This document shows positions 1,185 to 42,378 of a stretch of 64,000 nt of DNA, piece after piece. Position numbers and translations under genes: made by a program. Origin of the DNA: Methylophilaceae bacterium (GTDB taxonomy: Bacteria; Pseudomonadota; Gammaproteobacteria; Burkholderiales; Methylophilaceae). The stretch spans positions 124,001 to 188,000 of the forward strand of contig JAFMCB010000001.1 of NCBI GenBank assembly GCA_017858095.1, read 5' to 3'. Below the pieces are notes generated by a model. That model had not been told where the DNA came from. It saw only the letters and a list, made by a program, of their open reading frames with translations, and did no database searches. Position 1 is the stretch's first letter, and each line of letters begins with the position of its first letter.

Positions 1185-2562
1185 TTGTATTGATAAAAAT
1201 ATTTTTCGTGCTTATGACATACGGGGAGTGGTCAACGAATCCTTAAGTGAGGAGAATGTTTCATTAATTGGACAGGCAATTGGGTCCGTGGCACTCGAAA
1301 AAAAACAACCTACTATCTGTGTAGGTCGGGACGGGCGTTTATCAAGTCCTAAGTTATCTGATGCACTGATACATGGTCTTTTATCCACAGGTATTAATGT
1401 CATTGATATCGGGCTGGTAGCAACGCCAATGCTGTATTTTAGTAACTTTCATTTAAAAACTAATAGCGGAATTATGATTACTGGCAGTCATAACCCTCCT
1501 GAATATAATGGATTTAAAACTGTTATTGATCAAGGAACATTATCCTCAAATGATATTCAATCTCTGCATCAAAGAATTATGGAAAAAAATTTCAAATTTG
1601 GCCATGGACAATTAGAGAAAGCAGATATACGGTCCGCTTACATAAATGCAATTATAGAAAATATTAATATTAGCCGTCCCATAAAAATTTCTATTGATTG
1701 TGGCAATGGTGCGGCTGGGGTTTGTGCAGCCGATTTATTCAGCAAACTTGGAGTAAAAACAGAAAATTTATTTTGTGAAGTGGATGGCACATTTCCCAAT
1801 CACCACCCTGACCCTTCAAATCCAAAAAATTTGATGGATTTAATTCATAATGTTAAAACCACTGACAGTGAATTCGGGCTTGCGTTTGATGGTGATGCAG
1901 ATCGTTTAGGTGTTGTCACAAAAAACGGTGAGGTTATCTACCCTGATCGACAACTATTATTGTTTGCTGATGCTGTTTTAAAAGAAAATCCTGGGGCTAC
2001 TATTATCTTTGATGTTAAATCCACACGCTATCTTTTTGACTGGATTAGTTCGCGCGGTGGTCACCCATTAATATGGAAAACAGGGCACTCACATATTAAA
2101 TCGAAAATGAAGGAAATAAATGCGGCGCTTGCAGGAGAAATGAGTGGCCATACTTTTTTTAATGATCGCTGGTATGGTTTTGATGACGGACTTTATGCTG
2201 CAGCAAGATTGATTGAAATTTTAAGTCATCATGATAATCCATCCGCGGTGTTGGAAGCATTACCAAAAGGGTCGAGCACACCAGAATTAAATATAAAGTT
2301 GAATGAGGGTGAGCCACATGAACTTATTACTATTTTGCAAAAAGAAGCAGTATTTCCATTAGCTCAGAGTATCAATACTATTGATGGATTAAGGGTAGAA
2401 TACGAATTTGGATTTGGTTTGATGCGCGCCTCCAATACCACGCCCGTTATCGTTTTAAGATTCGAAGCTGATTCTGATGAGAATTTATTAAAAATACAAA
2501 ACGAATTTAAAATATGTTTGTCACAGTACATAGATATGGCTAAATTACCTTTTTTAGTATGA
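1177..2562 (+). CDS. Phosphomannomutase/phosphoglucomutase
   Basis: Alpha-D-phosphohexomutase of 461 residues that interconverts hexose 1- and 6-phosphates, probably for sugar-nucleotide and envelope polysaccharide synthesis. The phosphoserine loop ITGSHNPPEYNGFK has Ser104, the metal loop DGDADR is at 238-243 and the sugar-specificity loop GEMSGH at 320-325. A longer frame runs upstream inside iscX, but ATG 1177 (MNDCIDKNIFRAYDIRG) matches the family N-terminus and overlaps the iscX end by 8 bp, suggesting translational coupling. The stop overlaps the next start (ATGATGA). Whether mannose or glucose is preferred cannot be read from sequence. Confidence 0.93.
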   Translation: MNDCIDKNIFRAYDIRGVVNESLSEENVSLIGQAIGSVALEKKQPTICVGRDGRLSSPKLSDALIHGLLSTGINVIDIGLVATPMLYFSNFHLKTNSGIMITGSHNPPEYNGFKTVIDQGTLSSNDIQSLHQRIMEKNFKFGHGQLEKADIRSAYINAIIENINISRPIKISIDCGNGAAGVCAADLFSKLGVKTENLFCEVDGTFPNHHPDPSNPKNLMDLIHNVKTTDSEFGLAFDGDADRLGVVTKNGEVIYPDRQLLLFADAVLKENPGATIIFDVKSTRYLFDWISSRGGHPLIWKTGHSHIKSKMKEINAALAGEMSGHTFFNDRWYGFDDGLYAAARLIEILSHHDNPSAVLEALPKGSSTPELNIKLNEGEPHELITILQKEAVFPLAQSINTIDGLRVEYEFGFGLMRASNTTPVIVLRFEADSDENLLKIQNEFKICLSQYIDMAKLPFLV

Positions 2563-2984
2563 TGAAACTTTATTCAAGATTATTTATTATTATTAGCTTT
2601 TTTTTCACTGGCATCAGTGCTATGGAAAGAACTCCAGCGCCTGACAATGCAGAGGTTTACATTATTTCACCTATGGATAATGAGAGTGTTAATAATCCGG
2701 TGCAAGTTATATTTGGCCTGAAAAACATGGGGATTGCCCCAGCAGGAGTTAAAAATAGTCACACCGGACACCATCATTTACTTATTGATTTAGATAAATT
2801 ACCTGCACTGGATCGCCCAATTCCAAATGATAAAAATCATATACACTTTGGTAAAGGCCAAACTGAATCATCCTTAAACTTAACATCCGGAAAACACACA
2901 TTGCAATTGATATTAGGTGATCATCATCACATCCCCCACGACCCTGCAGTGATTTCAAACAAGATTACAATTTTTGTTAATTAG
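2559..2984 (+). CDS. Secreted DUF4399 protein
   Basis: A 141-residue protein with a Sec-type signal peptide (MKLYSRLFIIISFFFTGISA). The rest fits DUF4399: a beta-rich core with NPVQVIFGLKNMGIAPAG, a histidine cluster TGHHHLLID near 69-77, a second one GDHHHIPHDP near 123-132, and HIHFGKGQTE between them. The histidine clusters suggest periplasmic metal binding, but no function is established. Its ATG overlaps the preceding TGA; its end overlaps the convergent adhesin-E-like gene by 8 bp. Confidence 0.8.
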   Translation: MMKLYSRLFIIISFFFTGISAMERTPAPDNAEVYIISPMDNESVNNPVQVIFGLKNMGIAPAGVKNSHTGHHHLLIDLDKLPALDRPIPNDKNHIHFGKGQTESSLNLTSGKHTLQLILGDHHHIPHDPAVISNKITIFVN

Positions 2985-3375
2985 ATTTTGCTTCCTGGCA
3001 TGCAATGGACATGTAAGCGGAATTAACGGTATTGGGATTTATTTTTATCCATTCCGAGGGTGATCCTTTAGAATAAATTGCTTGTCCAAGTGCTTTTTTG
3101 TCTTTATAGATTGAGTAAGCCATATAGCGAAGCTGCTCTGCAATACAATCCACCTGAACAAGACTTTTTAACGAATTGTAAGTAATTGAATTAGCTTTTT
3201 GTGGCACATTAAAGCTTTCCATCACCCATAAACGTACTTTATTTTCAAGCATTTGAAAATTATCAAGCTTTACATAGTATGCAGATTGATTGGCATTATC
3301 CTCATGGAGTAAAGTCCAGCTCTCATCGGCAAAAACGTGGATAGAAAAAATAAGTAAAAAAATTAATTTCTTCAT
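2977..3375 (-). CDS. Secreted surface-adhesin-E-like protein
   Basis: A 132-residue protein with a short signal peptide (MKKLIFLLIFSIHVFA). The remainder (WTLLHEDNANQSAYYVKLDN, then WVMESFN and two cysteines near residues 77 and 126) fits the small Adhesin_E-like family (PF16747), a beta-barrel-like periplasmic or surface domain with two conserved cysteines. Upstream in-frame codons run through a terminator hairpin, so I start at ATG 3373-3375. That ATG lies six bases after TATAAT (3382-3387, minus strand) and has no Shine-Dalgarno, so it may be leaderless. Family assignment is moderate. Confidence 0.65.
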   Translation of the reverse strand: MKKLIFLLIFSIHVFADESWTLLHEDNANQSAYYVKLDNFQMLENKVRLWVMESFNVPQKANSITYNSLKSLVQVDCIAEQLRYMAYSIYKDKKALGQAIYSKGSPSEWIKINPNTVNSAYMSIACQEAKSN

Positions 3376-3394
3376 AAAATGATTATATACAAAT

Positions 3395-3421
3395 AAAAAA
3401 AGCCCGAACAAGTCGGGCTTT
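3395..3421 (-). terminator. Rho-independent terminator after the pqqA peptide genes
   Basis: A 9-bp stem (3399-3407 with 3413-3421, core GCCCGA/TCGGGC) has a 5-base loop and is followed on the minus strand by a run of seven T. It lies just downstream of pqqA copy 1 and would end the pqqA transcript before the adhesin-like gene. Confidence 0.85.
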
Positions 3422-3437
3422 CTAAGAACAAATAAAA

Positions 3438-3509
3438 TTACTTGTTCATTACGTACATGGTTACTTCAAAACCAAAACGCATTTCTGTAGCTGCAGGTTT
3501 AGTCCACAT
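3438..3509 (-). CDS. pqqA: PQQ precursor peptide PqqA, copy 1
   Basis: A 23-residue peptide starting [19 protein letters not shown]. It carries the invariant PqqA features: the E-x-x-x-Y motif with Glu15 and Tyr19, which are cross-linked by PqqE to begin PQQ synthesis, within [16 protein letters not shown] lies about 8 bases before the ATG. A strong terminator follows at once. No pqqBCDE genes are in the window, so the peptide genes are separated from the biosynthetic genes. PQQ serves XoxF/MxaF methanol dehydrogenases in methylotrophs. Confidence 0.95.
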
Positions 3510-3531
3510 AATGTTTCTCCTAAATAAATAG

Positions 3532-3630
3532 TTAATTTATAGACTTGGCAGAACACATAGGGCAAGTACATCGCCATCCGTGAAACAGCCAATCAGTAAT
3601 TTCTGTATTTTTACAAACTTTTAATTTCAT
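3532..3630 (-). CDS. Possible 32-residue cysteine-rich peptide between the two pqqA genes
   Basis: An ATG-initiated frame of 33 codons begins 6 bases after the stop of pqqA copy 2 and ends 22 bases before pqqA copy 1. It encodes four cysteines, three of them in GWRCTCPMC, with an aromatic stretch DWLFHGW before them. It has no PqqA signature and I do not recognise the family. There is no convincing Shine-Dalgarno, so translation would need coupling to pqqA copy 2. The CxCPxC arrangement could bind metal or be a modification site. It may also be a chance ORF. Confidence 0.4.
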
Positions 3631-3636
3631 TAAAAA

Positions 3637-3708
3637 TTAACGATTGCAAACGTACATAGTTACTTCAAAACCAAAACGCATTTCAGTTGCAGTAGGTTGT
3701 GTCCACAT
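3637..3708 (-). CDS. pqqA: PQQ precursor peptide PqqA, copy 2
   Basis: A second 23-residue PqqA ([19 protein letters not shown]...), again with Glu15 and Tyr19 of the E-x-x-x-Y motif. It differs from copy 1 at residues 4 and 6 and at the C-terminus, which ends VCNR rather than VMNK. The core [11 protein letters not shown] is identical, and the cysteine in the tail is unusual. AGGAG lies about 8 bases before the ATG. As the promoter-proximal gene of the small operon it may be the more highly expressed copy. Confidence 0.95.
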   Translation of the reverse strand: MWTQPTATEMRFGFEVTMYVCNR

Positions 3709-3894
3709 AGTATTTCTCCTTGTTTATGTTAAATAAAGTTCATTAAACATAAACCAGATCATTGAAGATGCAATTACAAGTAACTGCAAAGGTTCAACTT
3801 GAGATTTACACTAGTTATACTAGGCTGATCCATAAAAATAGCTATGATGATGAGCATGAAGATTGACTAAAGAAAATCATTAAGGCTAGAGACG
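3709..3894 (-). promoter_or_regulatory. Leader/promoter region of the pqqA peptide operon with a palindrome
   Basis: About 185 bp without a supported gene, between pqqA copy 2 and the terminator of the repeat-protein genes. It contains the inverted repeat CTAGT-TAT-ACTAG at 3811-3823, about 100 bases upstream of the pqqA ATG; on the minus strand its centre reads TAGTATAAC, which could serve as a -10 or an operator. The remaining ~100 bases before pqqA would be 5' UTR. No -35 box is convincing. Confidence 0.4.
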
Positions 3895-3926
3895 AAAAAA
3901 AACCGAGCTTGTAACAAACTCGGTTT
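3895..3926 (-). terminator. Rho-independent terminator after the repeat-protein genes
   Basis: Stem AAACCGAG/CTCGGTTT (3900-3907 with 3919-3926), extended by an inner TTG/CAA pairing, followed on the minus strand by a run of eight T. It lies 18 bases after the stop of the first repeat protein and separates that transcript from the pqqA leader. Confidence 0.85.
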
Positions 3927-3943
3927 AAATTTATTGGAGAGTA

Positions 3944-4222
3944 TTAATAACCACCCAAGTCAGCTCCCTTTCCCTCACCTGTTGGATTAAAACCACCATT
4001 ACCACCAATCAATAATGCGTCTGTGGGATGGAATGCTGTCGCAGGTGCTGCACTTTCACTAGCATAATCACCTAAATCGGCACCGCCATCATCGGCACTG
4101 GGATTAAAACCACCATTACCACCAATCAATAGTGCGTCTGTTGGATGGAAAGCATCATCAGCAATCAGAGCCGATGATGCAAACAATCCAGTTAGCAAAC
4201 TAACAAGTATTATTTTTTTCAT
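3944..4222 (-). CDS. Small exported repeat protein (two AFHPTDALLIGGN units)
   Basis: A 92-residue protein: a Sec-type signal peptide (MKKIILVSLLTGLFASSALIA) followed by two nearly identical 30-residue units at 24-53 and 63-92. Each begins AFHPTDALLIGGNGGFNP and ends GGADLG-D/G-Y, joined by ASESAAPAT. An upstream ATG exists in frame, but GGGAG seven bases before 4222 and the signal peptide support this start. It has no cysteine and is glycine- and aspartate-rich. I do not recognise the family. It lies 79 bases downstream of a sister gene with the same units and before a strong terminator, so the two are probably co-transcribed. Confidence 0.8.
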   Translation of the reverse strand: MKKIILVSLLTGLFASSALIADDAFHPTDALLIGGNGGFNPSADDGGADLGDYASESAAPATAFHPTDALLIGGNGGFNPTGEGKGADLGGY

Positions 4223-4502
4223 CAATTTTCTCCCATTCATGTATAAACTTAACAGCCTAATGAATGAATATTAAATCATAAATCGAGAAAAATTTAAACT
4301 TCTAGTACTCGCCTAAATCTGCACCGCCATCATCGGCACTGGGATTAAAACCACCGTTACCACCAATCAATAGTGCGTCTGTGGGATGGAATGCGCCTGC
4401 TGGTGCTGCTTCGTCATCAAGGCCTAGGTCTGCACCTTCACCCTCTGCAGCAACAATATTGTCATTACCACCAATCAATAGTGCGTCTGTTGGATGGAAT
4501 GC
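3947..4502 (-). repeat. Four copies of a ~90-bp coding repeat across two genes
   Basis: Units lie at 4422-4502 and 4305-4394 in the upstream gene, and at 4064-4153 and 3947-4036 in the downstream gene. The segment encoding HPTDALLIGG is almost identical in DNA in all four. The stretches 4071-4143 and 4312-4381 differ at only about two positions over ~70 bp even though they lie in different genes, indicating recent duplication or gene conversion. Confidence 0.9.
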
Positions 4503-4574
4503 TTCTTCTTCTTGAGGTGCTACGCAACCTACAAGAAATGCACCGATTAATGTTGCAAGTAAAGTTTTTTTCAT
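4302..4574 (-). CDS. Small repeat lipoprotein (two AFHPTDALLIGGN units)
   Basis: A 90-residue protein with a lipoprotein signal (MKKTLLATLIGAFLVGC, lipobox LVGC with Cys17), so probably membrane-anchored. Two units follow: residues 25-51, diverged after the core (GGNDNIVAAEGEGADLG), and 61-90, which matches the sister protein's first unit almost exactly (GGNGGFNPSADDGGADLGEY). A good Shine-Dalgarno (GGGGAG) precedes the ATG. Acidic, without cysteine apart from the lipobox. Family unknown. Lipoprotein and soluble versions of the same repeat suggest one is anchored and the other released. Confidence 0.8.
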   Translation of the reverse strand: MKKTLLATLIGAFLVGCVAPQEEEAFHPTDALLIGGNDNIVAAEGEGADLGLDDEAAPAGAFHPTDALLIGGNGGFNPSADDGGADLGEY

Positions 4575-4686
4575 TTACATACTCCCCTGTTAGTAAAAAA
4601 AATTTCTATTTTATGTTGCAAGAACAACGGTTTATTAAGGTTTATTTAGCTTAATACCTCAAATATGACAATTTTCTCTGTTGATG

Positions 4687-5316
4687 TCAATCGTGTTCGT
4701 TAATTTGTGCTTCAAAATTAAATTTATTATTCTCTACCAGGAGCCTTGCAAGGCTCGATCCAAGCGCTTGAGAGTTTAAAATTAATTTCTTTGCCTTAGG
4801 TAACTCTTGCGGAACAATGTAGCCATAATAATAGAGCAGCCCCAAACTGAAGGTAGCTTCAGGGTGCAGATTACCTGCTGCTTGTTTAAGCCATGTATAT
4901 GCTTCTGCTTTGCTTACGCCAAGGTTATTGACGTAAAGAAGCCAGAGAAAATATTGTGTTTCTATATCGCCATCATTACCAATTTTTCTGAGTTGATTTA
5001 AATCACCTTTTGTAAATTCTTTTTCAAAAATTGTTTGATATTTTTTGATATTATTTTTAAAAAGCTGCGCATGAAAATCATTGTCCGCAATATGGGCAAG
5101 ATAATATTGTTGGCTCTTCAGATGATTTTGAAAGGCGGCAATCTCAATCAAGTGACGGGATTTCGTCGCGTCGCTGTCCCCAATTATAAACGCATACTGA
5201 TATTGCGCTTCGGGCTCGCCATCCATCGCTTGCTGCAATAATTCATTTGCCACTACCGAAAAAGGTAAAATGCATTGCAACAGAAACAAGAATTTAAATA
5301 GTTGAAAAATGGACAT
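4687..5316 (-). CDS. Exported Sel1-repeat (TPR-like) protein
   Basis: A 209-residue protein with an N-terminal hydrophobic signal (MSIFQLFKFLFLLQCILPFSVVA). Sel1-like helical repeats follow: AMDGEPEAQYQYAFI near 30-44, GDIETQYFLWLLYVNN..AYTWLKQAA near 115-147, and HPEATFSLGLLYYYGYIVPQELPKAKKLI near 151-180. Such proteins are periplasmic interaction scaffolds; the partner is unknown. It lies upstream of the repeat lipoprotein on the same strand with about 110 bp between, and is divergent from the SoxYZ-like carrier. Confidence 0.8.
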   Translation of the reverse strand: MSIFQLFKFLFLLQCILPFSVVANELLQQAMDGEPEAQYQYAFIIGDSDATKSRHLIEIAAFQNHLKSQQYYLAHIADNDFHAQLFKNNIKKYQTIFEKEFTKGDLNQLRKIGNDGDIETQYFLWLLYVNNLGVSKAEAYTWLKQAAGNLHPEATFSLGLLYYYGYIVPQELPKAKKLILNSQALGSSLARLLVENNKFNFEAQINEHD

Positions 5317-5359
5317 ATTGCTCTATTTGTATTAAATTACATATGATTTTGACGTAATT

Positions 5360-6118
5360 ATGATGAATATTATTAAAAAAATTAGTTTTCTTATTCTTGT
5401 CACATTTTCTTTGAATTTGTGGGCTGAGGCAAATCCTGAACTGTGGCCCTTTGTTAAAGAGAAGATGTTCCAAGATCGCCCAATAATTGAAGCAGGTTTT
5501 GTTAAATTATCGGGACCTAAACGTGCCTCAAGTGGTGCACAGGTGCCGGTCAAATTGGAATTATCTGCCCCTGATGGCGTAACGATAAAGCATGTTTTCT
5601 TAATTATCGACGCAAACCCAACACAACATGCAGCAACCTACTTTTTGTCAGAAAAAATGCAAGAAGTTGATATTTCCACACGAATACGCATGGAGACCGA
5701 TTCCTTTGTTAGGGCAGTGGCTGAAGACGATAAAGGAAATTTATACATGAGTTTCCAAGAAATTCGCGCATCCGGTGGATGCAGTGGTTATATGGATGTC
5801 CATGATCCAGAATTAACGGCAGATCTTGGCAAGATTTTAATTAAAGCGAAAGATGACTTTTTAGTTACAAGAATTAAACATCCAAATTTTACTGGCTTAC
5901 AACGTGATTTAGATTCTGGCGGTTATATTCCGGAGTGGATTGTTAAAGATATGATTTACATGAATGATAATGAAGTAATCTTGGCGGTTCATAACAAAAT
6001 TTCAATCAGTCAAGATCCCTATTTAAAAGTGCGGTTACCCAAAGGGGTTATTGGTGATGTGGTATTAAACGCTATTGACACCAAAGGCAATCAATTTTCC
6101 AAAGACATTAAGATTTAA
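5360..6118 (+). CDS. Quinoprotein dehydrogenase-associated SoxYZ-like carrier
   Basis: A 252-residue periplasmic protein with a signal peptide (IIKKISFLILVTFSLNLWAEA). Residues ~24-143 resemble SoxY and end in EIRASGGCSG, the swinging-arm cysteine motif; Cys141 is the only cysteine. Residues ~145-252 resemble SoxZ (ILIKAKDDFLVTRIKHPN, GYIPEWIVKDM). In sulfur oxidisers SoxYZ carries sulfur intermediates on this cysteine. The fused form is known near PQQ-dependent alcohol dehydrogenase genes in methylotrophs and its role there is unclear. No other sox gene or dehydrogenase is in the window, but two pqqA genes lie 2 kb away. Tandem ATGs at 5360 and 5363; either may be used. Confidence 0.85.
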   Translation: MMNIIKKISFLILVTFSLNLWAEANPELWPFVKEKMFQDRPIIEAGFVKLSGPKRASSGAQVPVKLELSAPDGVTIKHVFLIIDANPTQHAATYFLSEKMQEVDISTRIRMETDSFVRAVAEDDKGNLYMSFQEIRASGGCSGYMDVHDPELTADLGKILIKAKDDFLVTRIKHPNFTGLQRDLDSGGYIPEWIVKDMIYMNDNEVILAVHNKISISQDPYLKVRLPKGVIGDVVLNAIDTKGNQFSKDIKI

Positions 6119-6461
6119 ATCTCAATAATTTTTGTTTTGTCCAAACAAAAATAAATGGACTGACTCCAATCAAAATAAAAATCATAAAAATTCGCAGTAT
6201 ATTCCAGTAAAAAAATACGTGATGGCTTATAAGTTCATGAAGTTCGACTAGTTTCTTTTGGTTAGCATCGAGATTTTTTTCAGCCTGCTTTAATAATTCA
6301 ATATTGCAAATCTTCTCATCAGTAAGGCATTGGCGCATCTCAATGTCATAACGCTGGAGAAAAATTTGATTAGAAAAATATTCATTAATTGCTAAAAAGA
6401 TTGATAAAAAAAGGCCAATAATAAAAAATAGCCAAAAGAAATGTTTATATTTGTTATACAT
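6108..6461 (-). CDS. Hypothetical inner-membrane protein with two TM segments
   Basis: A 117-residue protein with hydrophobic segments at about 9-27 (FWLFFIIGLFLSIFLAI) and 86-106 (NILRIFMIFILIGVSPFIFVW), flanking a ~55-residue polar region with two cysteines (RQCLTDEKICN) and a predicted helix. I do not recognise the family. Its end overlaps the SoxYZ-like gene by 11 bp in convergent orientation; upstream lies the TauE gene, 8 bp away on the same strand. Confidence 0.65.
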   Translation of the reverse strand: MYNKYKHFFWLFFIIGLFLSIFLAINEYFSNQIFLQRYDIEMRQCLTDEKICNIELLKQAEKNLDANQKKLVELHELISHHVFFYWNILRIFMIFILIGVSPFIFVWTKQKLLRFKS

Positions 6462-6469
6462 AATCTAAG

Positions 6470-7228
6470 TTAAGTTAAGATAAATTTCCATGCCGCAATA
6501 ATTAAAACAACACCCAAAACTTTTCTAATGCCACTCGCATCAAAATGCTTTATGCCCAGTTGAGTGCCAATAGTAACACCTAAAATGACCGCAATAGAAT
6601 ATAAAAAAATTGTTGGGGGCAATGATTGTATGGATGAAAGATTACCCAACAAACCAGCAATTGAATTTAATAAAATAAAGGCTGCCGCCGTTCCTGATGC
6701 TGCTCTGACCGATGTCCACCCGAATAACACTATGAGCGGCGAAAGAAAAATTCCACCCCCCGTTCCTGTTAATCCAGAAATGAAACCAATGCTGGCTCCT
6801 GCAATAAAAGCATATAAAAGATTTACTTTTTTTAATTGCGTTGGTGCATTTTGAACAAAATTGAAAATTAATTGCAGCCCGGCAATAAAGAGGACAAACC
6901 CCAATAAAGGTCGATAAAAAACATCCGTTAAATTAATATAGCCACCTAAAAAGGCTGCCGGAACTGAGCCTGCAATAATTGGAAGAAAAACATTTAAGTT
7001 AAAAAACTTGTTTTGAATAAAGCGAAATGAAGCAACAGATGAAACAATAACGTTTAACGTCAGGCCAATCGGCTTAATAAAATTTGTTGGCGTGCCTAGC
7101 AACGACATGATAGCAATATATGAAGAGGCGCCACCGTGACCAACAGATGAATAAATTATTGCACCAAAAAAAATTAAAATTGCAGTGAGGTAGTCTTTTT
7201 GTGAAAAAGATAAAAAAATTTCTATCAT
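6470..7228 (-). CDS. TauE/SafE-family permease
   Basis: A 252-residue polytopic protein with about eight TM segments. TauE/SafE features include SSVGHGGASSYIAIMSLLG near residues 28-46 and the second-half repeat SGLTGTGGGIFLSPLIVLFGW near 152-172. Members export sulfite or sulfoacetate, or move other organic anions. The nearby SoxYZ-like carrier makes a sulfur-anion substrate attractive but unproven. Its ATG overlaps the stop of the upstream secreted protein by 4 bp, so the two are translationally coupled. Confidence 0.88.
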   Translation of the reverse strand: MIEIFLSFSQKDYLTAILIFFGAIIYSSVGHGGASSYIAIMSLLGTPTNFIKPIGLTLNVIVSSVASFRFIQNKFFNLNVFLPIIAGSVPAAFLGGYINLTDVFYRPLLGFVLFIAGLQLIFNFVQNAPTQLKKVNLLYAFIAGASIGFISGLTGTGGGIFLSPLIVLFGWTSVRAASGTAAAFILLNSIAGLLGNLSSIQSLPPTIFLYSIAVILGVTIGTQLGIKHFDASGIRKVLGVVLIIAAWKFILT

Positions 7229-42302: not shown

Positions 42303-42378
42303 TGGAGCGGGAAACGAGGTTCGAACTCGCGACCTATACCTTGGCAAGGTATCGCTCTACCAGCTGAGCTATTCCCGC
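42303..42378 (-). tRNA. tRNA-Gly (GCC)
   Basis: A 76-nt cloverleaf: acceptor GCGGGAA/TTCCCGC, discriminator T, encoded CCA, anticodon stem ATACC/GGTAT with loop TTGCCAA (anticodon GCC), T-loop TTCGAAC. It follows pgsA by about 53 bp, matching the E. coli order pgsA-glyW-cysT-leuZ. Confidence 0.96.

Follow-up and report, generated by a model that had tools for sequence, protein, structure and literature searches.

What are the two small tandem genes at positions 3944-4574 of this Methylophilaceae bacterium DNA, and what could their products do for the cell? The stretch analysed, hereafter the window, is 64 kb long (genome G000, contig C32:124001-188000), and each of the two genes encodes an exported protein with two copies of a short unit opened by FHPTD. 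They have been compared with other members collected from further loci, which are cited by genome (G) or fetched-stretch (L) number where needed. By its sequences this is a new, strongly selected exported family that is core in the OM43 clade, the genus of the window. As a tentative reading, its members may dock on a periplasmic partner in methanol oxidation dependent on pyrroloquinoline quinone (PQQ) and XoxF.

Repeat units, selection and distribution

An earlier note on the window had described one secreted protein and one lipoprotein encoded in tandem, each with two units, and both points are confirmed (genes A and B in Table 1). FHPTDALLIGGN opens each of the four units (A.1, A.2, B.1 and B.2) and FHPTDALLIGGNGGFNP is present in three; the exception is B.1, which keeps FHPTDALLIGGN and then diverges. 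Over 51 nt, A.1 and B.2 are 96% identical, A.1/A.2 and A.2/B.2 are 94% identical, and B.1 reaches only 78-82% to the other three. Comparison of the same unit positions with the nearest relative (L036) gives 90% for A.1, 84% for A.2 and B.2, and 69% for B.1. Since three window units are closer to each other than to their L036 counterparts, homogenisation of units within the genome, acting within genes, is supported by these alignments, as had been proposed. In L036 the two units inside each gene are 98% alike, and gene against gene gives 82-84%. Homogenisation between genes has probably also occurred in the lineage of the window. A.1 and B.1 agree exactly over their initial 36 nt and then part; perhaps conversion covered a very short stretch of B.1, or the remaining unit has decayed.

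Selection was estimated from seven KB13-type orthologues with one unit. The proportions of synonymous (pS) and nonsynonymous (pN) differences are 0.639 and 0.011 in the 17-codon core (pN/pS 0.017), 0.581 and 0.053 in the tail, and 0.339 and 0.101 in the signal peptide, pN/pS being drawn from 21 non-independent pairs and core pS being near saturation. Because of this low core ratio, the family is, as judged from substitutions, a real protein under strong purifying selection and not a product of chance. Silent sites of the core turn over in this comparison while the peptide stays nearly fixed.

A profile search at E 0.01 found matches in 35 of 187 Methylophilaceae genomes, several of which are draft metagenome-assembled genomes (MAGs): 24 of 31 in genus g1, 10 of 16 in genus g43, and one g39 genome, G077, whose match (E 0.0036) falls in a 634-aa frame and was rejected as probably spurious. 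Because identical proteins occur in correspondingly named records, g1 is taken as the OM43 clade (HTCC2181, KB13 and LSUCC isolates) and g43 as Candidatus Methylopumilus. The repeat is present in close relatives of the window genome. The gene is found in 17/17 OM43 genomes at least 85% complete, and the seven without it are all at most 84% complete; among Methylopumilus genomes at least 90% complete it is found in 6/9. In an order-wide sample of 399 genomes seven matched, six of them from these two genera, with nothing convincing beyond, and in a class-wide sample of 274 genomes the window's own genome alone matched. A partial weak match in G476 (E 0.0026, 169-aa frame) was rejected as probably spurious, and single-protein search matches outside OM43 (E 0.018 to 0.86) were weak and set aside.

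The repeat remains unrecognised, as the earlier reader had found it. Searches of Pfam and NCBIfam with four proteins each gave only sub-threshold matches, and the best E value in a PDB profile search with two sequences was 0.46. The window protein had no family match in PHROGs, where 10 members together hit eight families, each matched by one or two of them (best E 0.0007, one member, undescribed family). Phage records gave no match at E 0.01, and none of 25 pattern stretches in viral contigs was confirmed. In the open literature searched the 12-letter motif was not found, and none of the papers listed describes the family in its title or abstract opening. On these searches the family is nearly restricted to two pelagic genera and is without a convincing library match. 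Two outcomes that the earlier note had named as refuting, a match to a well-characterised family and absence from close relatives, thus did not occur.

Protein anatomy and possible functions

Among 46 distinct proteins from the fetched loci, about half carry a lipobox (24 or 25, depending on the pattern) and the others a plain signal peptide; the lipobox call of L051 is doubtful, its orthologues being signal-peptide proteins. Each protein has one or two units; its mature chain carries a net charge of -3 to -17, contains one to three His and, L051 set aside, has Cys only at the lipobox. In an alignment of 20 unit types, from which the sole FHPTQ unit was omitted, columns H2, T4, D5 and G13 are invariant and F1 and P3 nearly so, and the best-conserved segment is FHPTD, not the Asp/Asn-rich tail. 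Two subtypes follow the motif, ALLIGGNG(G/P/Q)(F/Y)N and DV..QGGKG, and the latter (FHPTDDVSSQSQGGKG) is without the Asn-Pro segment. The motif is constant across lipoproteins and signal-peptide proteins despite differing leaders and linkers. Two AlphaFold2 models, made from 10 and 5 aligned sequences, show the signal helix and one short helix inside the motif (predicted local distance difference test score 60.7 and 58.9; predicted template modelling score 0.20 and 0.24). These low-confidence models look disordered; being built on shallow alignments, they agree with disorder without proving it.

According to the +2 rule of lipoprotein sorting, Ala, Val or Ser next to the lipobox Cys is compatible with the outer membrane, and one of these residues is present in 20 of 25 lipobox calls. 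Asp after the Cys is a signal for retention in the inner membrane. The third copy in L093 (8612-8842) is a lipoprotein with Asp at this place, unlike gene B, and individual copies may be anchored in different membranes.

The reading that we prefer, tentatively, is that the family consists of exported, acidic, mostly disordered docking peptides for a putative periplasmic partner of PQQ/XoxF methanol oxidation. Function would be carried by the short linear motif [FY]H[PS]TD with its ALLIGGN or DV..QGGKG continuation, present once or twice per protein, and the proteins would be exported as free periplasmic proteins or as lipoproteins. In contact with a conserved partner in the periplasm the motif would fold as a short helix, and paired units would allow binding at two sites. 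The partner would belong to the PQQ/XoxF apparatus, either as the dehydrogenase itself, as its cytochrome or chaperone, or as a component that loads cofactor or metal. The combination of a strict motif, acidic chains that otherwise vary, a copy number of one or two, two kinds of anchoring and predicted disorder suits a docking peptide more than it suits an enzyme or a metal loop.

A calcium or lanthanide buffer, whose acidic tails and motif Asp and Asn would bind metal for XoxF in a lanmodulin-like role without EF-hands, appears improbable. Like lanmodulin, these are small exported methylotroph proteins with repeated units and acidic residues; they differ in having a different motif and neither EF-hand loops nor an EF-hand family match. 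The earlier note had raised, as a speculation, a resemblance of the unit to the EF-hand loops of lanmodulin, and this resemblance is not supported. The canonical EF loop, DxDxDG and [DE]xDxDx6E, the last being the pattern given for LanM in the available part of PMC9260416, were each found in 0/46 proteins, a very loose EF-type pattern was found in two, Pfam searches with four proteins returned no EF-hand model at E up to 10, and one whole subtype is without Asn-Pro. Carboxylate positions in the tail vary and FHPTD hardly does, and the few His and the confinement of Cys to the lipobox also speak against a buffer. Moreover, acidic proteins are common in marine organisms anyway, as far as the accessible text of PMC8262872 goes. 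RTX nonapeptide repeats were found in none of the 46 proteins. The RTX motif consists of stacked GGxGxDxUx repeats.

The tandem units could also be read as a precursor, in which cleavage between units frees FHPTD peptides as a signal, carrier or antagonist. Near-identical tandem units, variable linkers and the range of one to two units would suit such processing. We consider it very unlikely, as about half of the proteins are lipoproteins and one-unit orthologues retain most of a 43-44-residue mature chain. In addition, no peptide-modifying enzyme, peptidase or peptide exporter was recognised among the seven window neighbours, the only place where they were sought, though a TauE/SafE-type permease is encoded at 6470-7228.

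Neighbourhoods in OM43 and in freshwater genomes

The adjacency to pqqA pointed out in the earlier note is conserved in OM43: in 23 of the 24 gene-bearing OM43 genomes two pqqA genes follow the repeat gene on the same strand, and in the remaining one (G013, L060) the locus ends at a contig edge. The pqqA pair belongs to the primary locus, and the extra copies in L093, L095, L098 and L102 are without pqqA in the stretch read. The OM43 pair consists of two different genes in tandem, and Methylopumilus L040 and L103 have one pqqA each. On the other side of the repeat genes, a Sel1-like cluster and a SoxYZ-like cluster each occur in 15 of 21 stretches compared, and the SoxYZ-like side is less constant than the pqqA side; in the window the SoxYZ-like gene is two genes away from the repeat. 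SoxYZ-like proteins are conserved in bacteria with lanthanide/PQQ alcohol dehydrogenases, according to the part of PMC12997753 available. From the third copy in L093 it is 3.3 kb to a gene for a PQQ-type alcohol dehydrogenase, which scores 394.9 bits with TIGR03075 (curated cut-off 480, not reached), and from its counterpart in L094 it is 2.6 kb to the matching quinoprotein-type gene; the TIGR03075 scan covered the L093 gene only. In freshwater Methylopumilus, a GSDH-like gene is next to the repeat gene in L040 and L103, and a relative is 2.9 kb off in L105 (the PF07995 scan covered the L040 gene only).

These neighbours allow another account, an envelope or surface protein (adhesion, spacing or periplasmic bridging) unrelated to methanol oxidation, with pqqA merely a fixed neighbour. 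It would agree with the Adhesin_E-type and Sel1-like genes alongside, the share of lipoproteins and their +2 residues. The name of PF16747, however, does not establish adhesion here, and in G018 and G028 the pqqA pair is retained beside the repeat and the SoxYZ-like side is not. We regard this account as unlikely.

The docking peptide is tentatively linked to PQQ and XoxF because of the pqqA position in OM43 and the quinoprotein-type genes near some other copies, and several points weigh against this link. It is guilt by association, and the quinoprotein proximity was noticed post hoc. G018 and G028 carry the SoxYZ-like gene on a different contig from the repeat, and G002 and G004, drafts of 60 and 77% completeness in which no unit was found anywhere, have none beside it. 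TIGR04557 is present in 177 of the 187 family genomes against 35 for the repeat, and because of this the SoxYZ-like gene is no general partner; as an obligate partner it was dropped, since adjacency is broken in these four genomes. An extra copy in L095 lies 78 nt 3' of a ZnuD-like TonB receptor gene, further extra copies are near unrelated genes, and G108, G110 and G118 have the GSDH-like gene without an adjoining repeat. Finally, the gene is dispensable in Methylopumilus, judging from its absence in three of the nine more complete genomes.

A more specific form of the docking reading is that the FHPTD peptide tunes or loads the single XoxF4 dehydrogenase. It would be a new periplasmic helper of lanthanide/PQQ methanol oxidation that arose in, or was acquired by, pelagic methylotrophs with streamlined genomes, and that some freshwater strains carry as a tRNA-Lys single-gene cassette. 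This form seems rather doubtful. In the accessible part of PMC5120137, xoxF is the most abundant transcript in an OM43 isolate, and XoxJ and XoxG are named. The repeat family resembles such PQQ/quinoprotein accessory proteins (TIGR04557, XoxJ and XoxG) in export and in its pqqA/SoxYZ-like genomic neighbourhood; no sequence relation was seen, and it is far narrower than TIGR04557. Genomes of OM43 and Methylopumilus are streamlined, and a family that is kept by pqqA in such a genome, sometimes duplicated and homogenised, with a nearly fixed core, likely matters for the lifestyle. If the tie to XoxF is true, it would add a new part to marine lanthanide-dependent methanol oxidation; if there is no such tie, an abundant marine group nevertheless has in it a core protein that belongs to no named family.

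The freshwater copies have a different setting. In L096, L103 and L040 the repeat gene adjoins or lies close to an intact tRNA-Lys(ctt), and a tRNA-Lys end (at most three mismatches) is present in seven of 14 Methylopumilus-type stretches (L039, L040, L041, L096, L097, L103 and L106, where L041 and L106 are the same gene). No such end was found in the other seven (L038, L044, L045, L046, L047, L078 and L105), several of which are short. The L039 contig is labelled as a Chitinophagaceae MAG; since its repeat gene is of the Methylopumilus type and it has fragments of tRNA-Lys, it is probably mis-binned. The freshwater tRNA-Lys location matches the island fGI-2 which, in the portion of PMC10872708 available, is identified by a repeated 20-base end of tRNA-Lys and has cargo including terC, msrA and metal transport. 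That portion does not mention the repeat protein, and the marine copies scanned have no such boundary. At 8915-9541 of L096 (G108), direct repeats of 66-74 bp at 553-bp spacing enclose the repeat gene alone immediately beside tRNA-Lys, an arrangement that resembles a minimal cassette of this island with one gene. A block of some 880 bp with the repeat gene and a small helix-turn-helix gene, present in L103 downstream of the GSDH-like gene, is missing from G108 and G118; a 77-aa frame lies just outside this block, and G108 has two repeat-gene copies at other locations. We also set aside the idea that the freshwater cassettes derive from integrons, since their boundaries go with the tRNA-Lys repeats of PMC10872708, whose available text also states that small insertions outside three islands are not bona fide integrons.

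From the tRNA-Lys ends and the L096 unit it might be supposed that the gene is mobile-island cargo, spread by tRNA-Lys insertion and having an island-typical stress or metal role, not one in methanol oxidation. This is quite unlikely in view of the half of the Methylopumilus-type stretches that show no tRNA-Lys end and of the constancy of the gene in the more complete OM43 genomes; 13 OM43 stretches scanned had no island boundary motif. Two OM43 matches to the tRNA end are at tRNA-Ala (L056) and tRNA-Gly (window 42303-42378).

In two of the freshwater stretches pqqA lies across tRNA-Lys from the repeat gene, at 4.4 kb in L103 and 8.2 kb in L040, and none was found in the other Methylopumilus stretches read (L044, L047, L096 and L105). 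The order IHF, MerR, tRNA-Pro, pqqA, Adhesin_E is common to L103 and the window, where the first two genes are what we take to be IHF and MerR. The tRNA-Lys island may have been the route by which the gene reached, or departed from, the surroundings of pqqA.

Features of the window and further copies

Table 1. Coordinates of the two repeat genes and surrounding features in the window
Feature	Position	Strand	Remarks
Gene B	4302..4574	(-)	90-aa lipoprotein, LVGC lipobox; two FHPTD units: 4499-4419 (B.1), 4391-4305
Gene A	3944..4222	(-)	92-aa signal-peptide protein; two FHPTD units: 4150-4064, 4033-3947
Promoter-like TTGACA-17-CATATT, TG before second hexamer	4662..4690	(-)	upstream of gene B
Terminator-like hairpin, 12 pairs and T tail	3900..3926	(-)	3' of gene A
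pqqA copy 1	3637..3708	(-)	23 aa
pqqA copy 2	3438..3509	(-)	23 aa; then terminator-like hairpin 3423-3397
Adhesin_E small exported protein	2977..3375	(-)	PF16747, E 1.2e-22; often next neighbour
Sel1-like exported protein	4687..5316	(-)	PF08238, E 0.00084, 20.3 bits, below cut-off 30.7
Quinoprotein dehydrogenase-associated SoxYZ-like carrier	5360..6118	(+)	TIGR04557, E 3.1e-61, 206.5 bits, cut-off 140
TauE/SafE-type permease	6470-7228		window neighbour

The mechanical open reading frame of gene A has 98 aa (3944-4240), and the internal ATG at 4222 is preferred as its start because a GGGAG site precedes it. From the promoter-like site and the hairpin, genes B and A look like one transcription unit. 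In 3380-5400, promoter-like sites are not enriched (9 against 7.5 in shuffles, standard deviation 3.2) and are alone weak evidence, and terminator-like sites are in slight excess (3 against 1.4, standard deviation 1.0). A scan of window 2000-6500 with Rfam gave three matches, all far under their gathering scores. Close relatives of the Sel1-like protein are confined to the genus of the window.

Outside the window, the same genome has a third gene with a single unit, FHSTDALLIGGNGGFNP, at C30:26629-26790. In L095 (4680-7364), a small His-rich exported protein and the ZnuD-like TonB receptor are followed by the repeat lipoprotein. Two other genomes also have such a receptor in the vicinity of repeat genes, at a distance of 5.8 kb in L098 and of 5.7 kb in L102, where it was not scanned.
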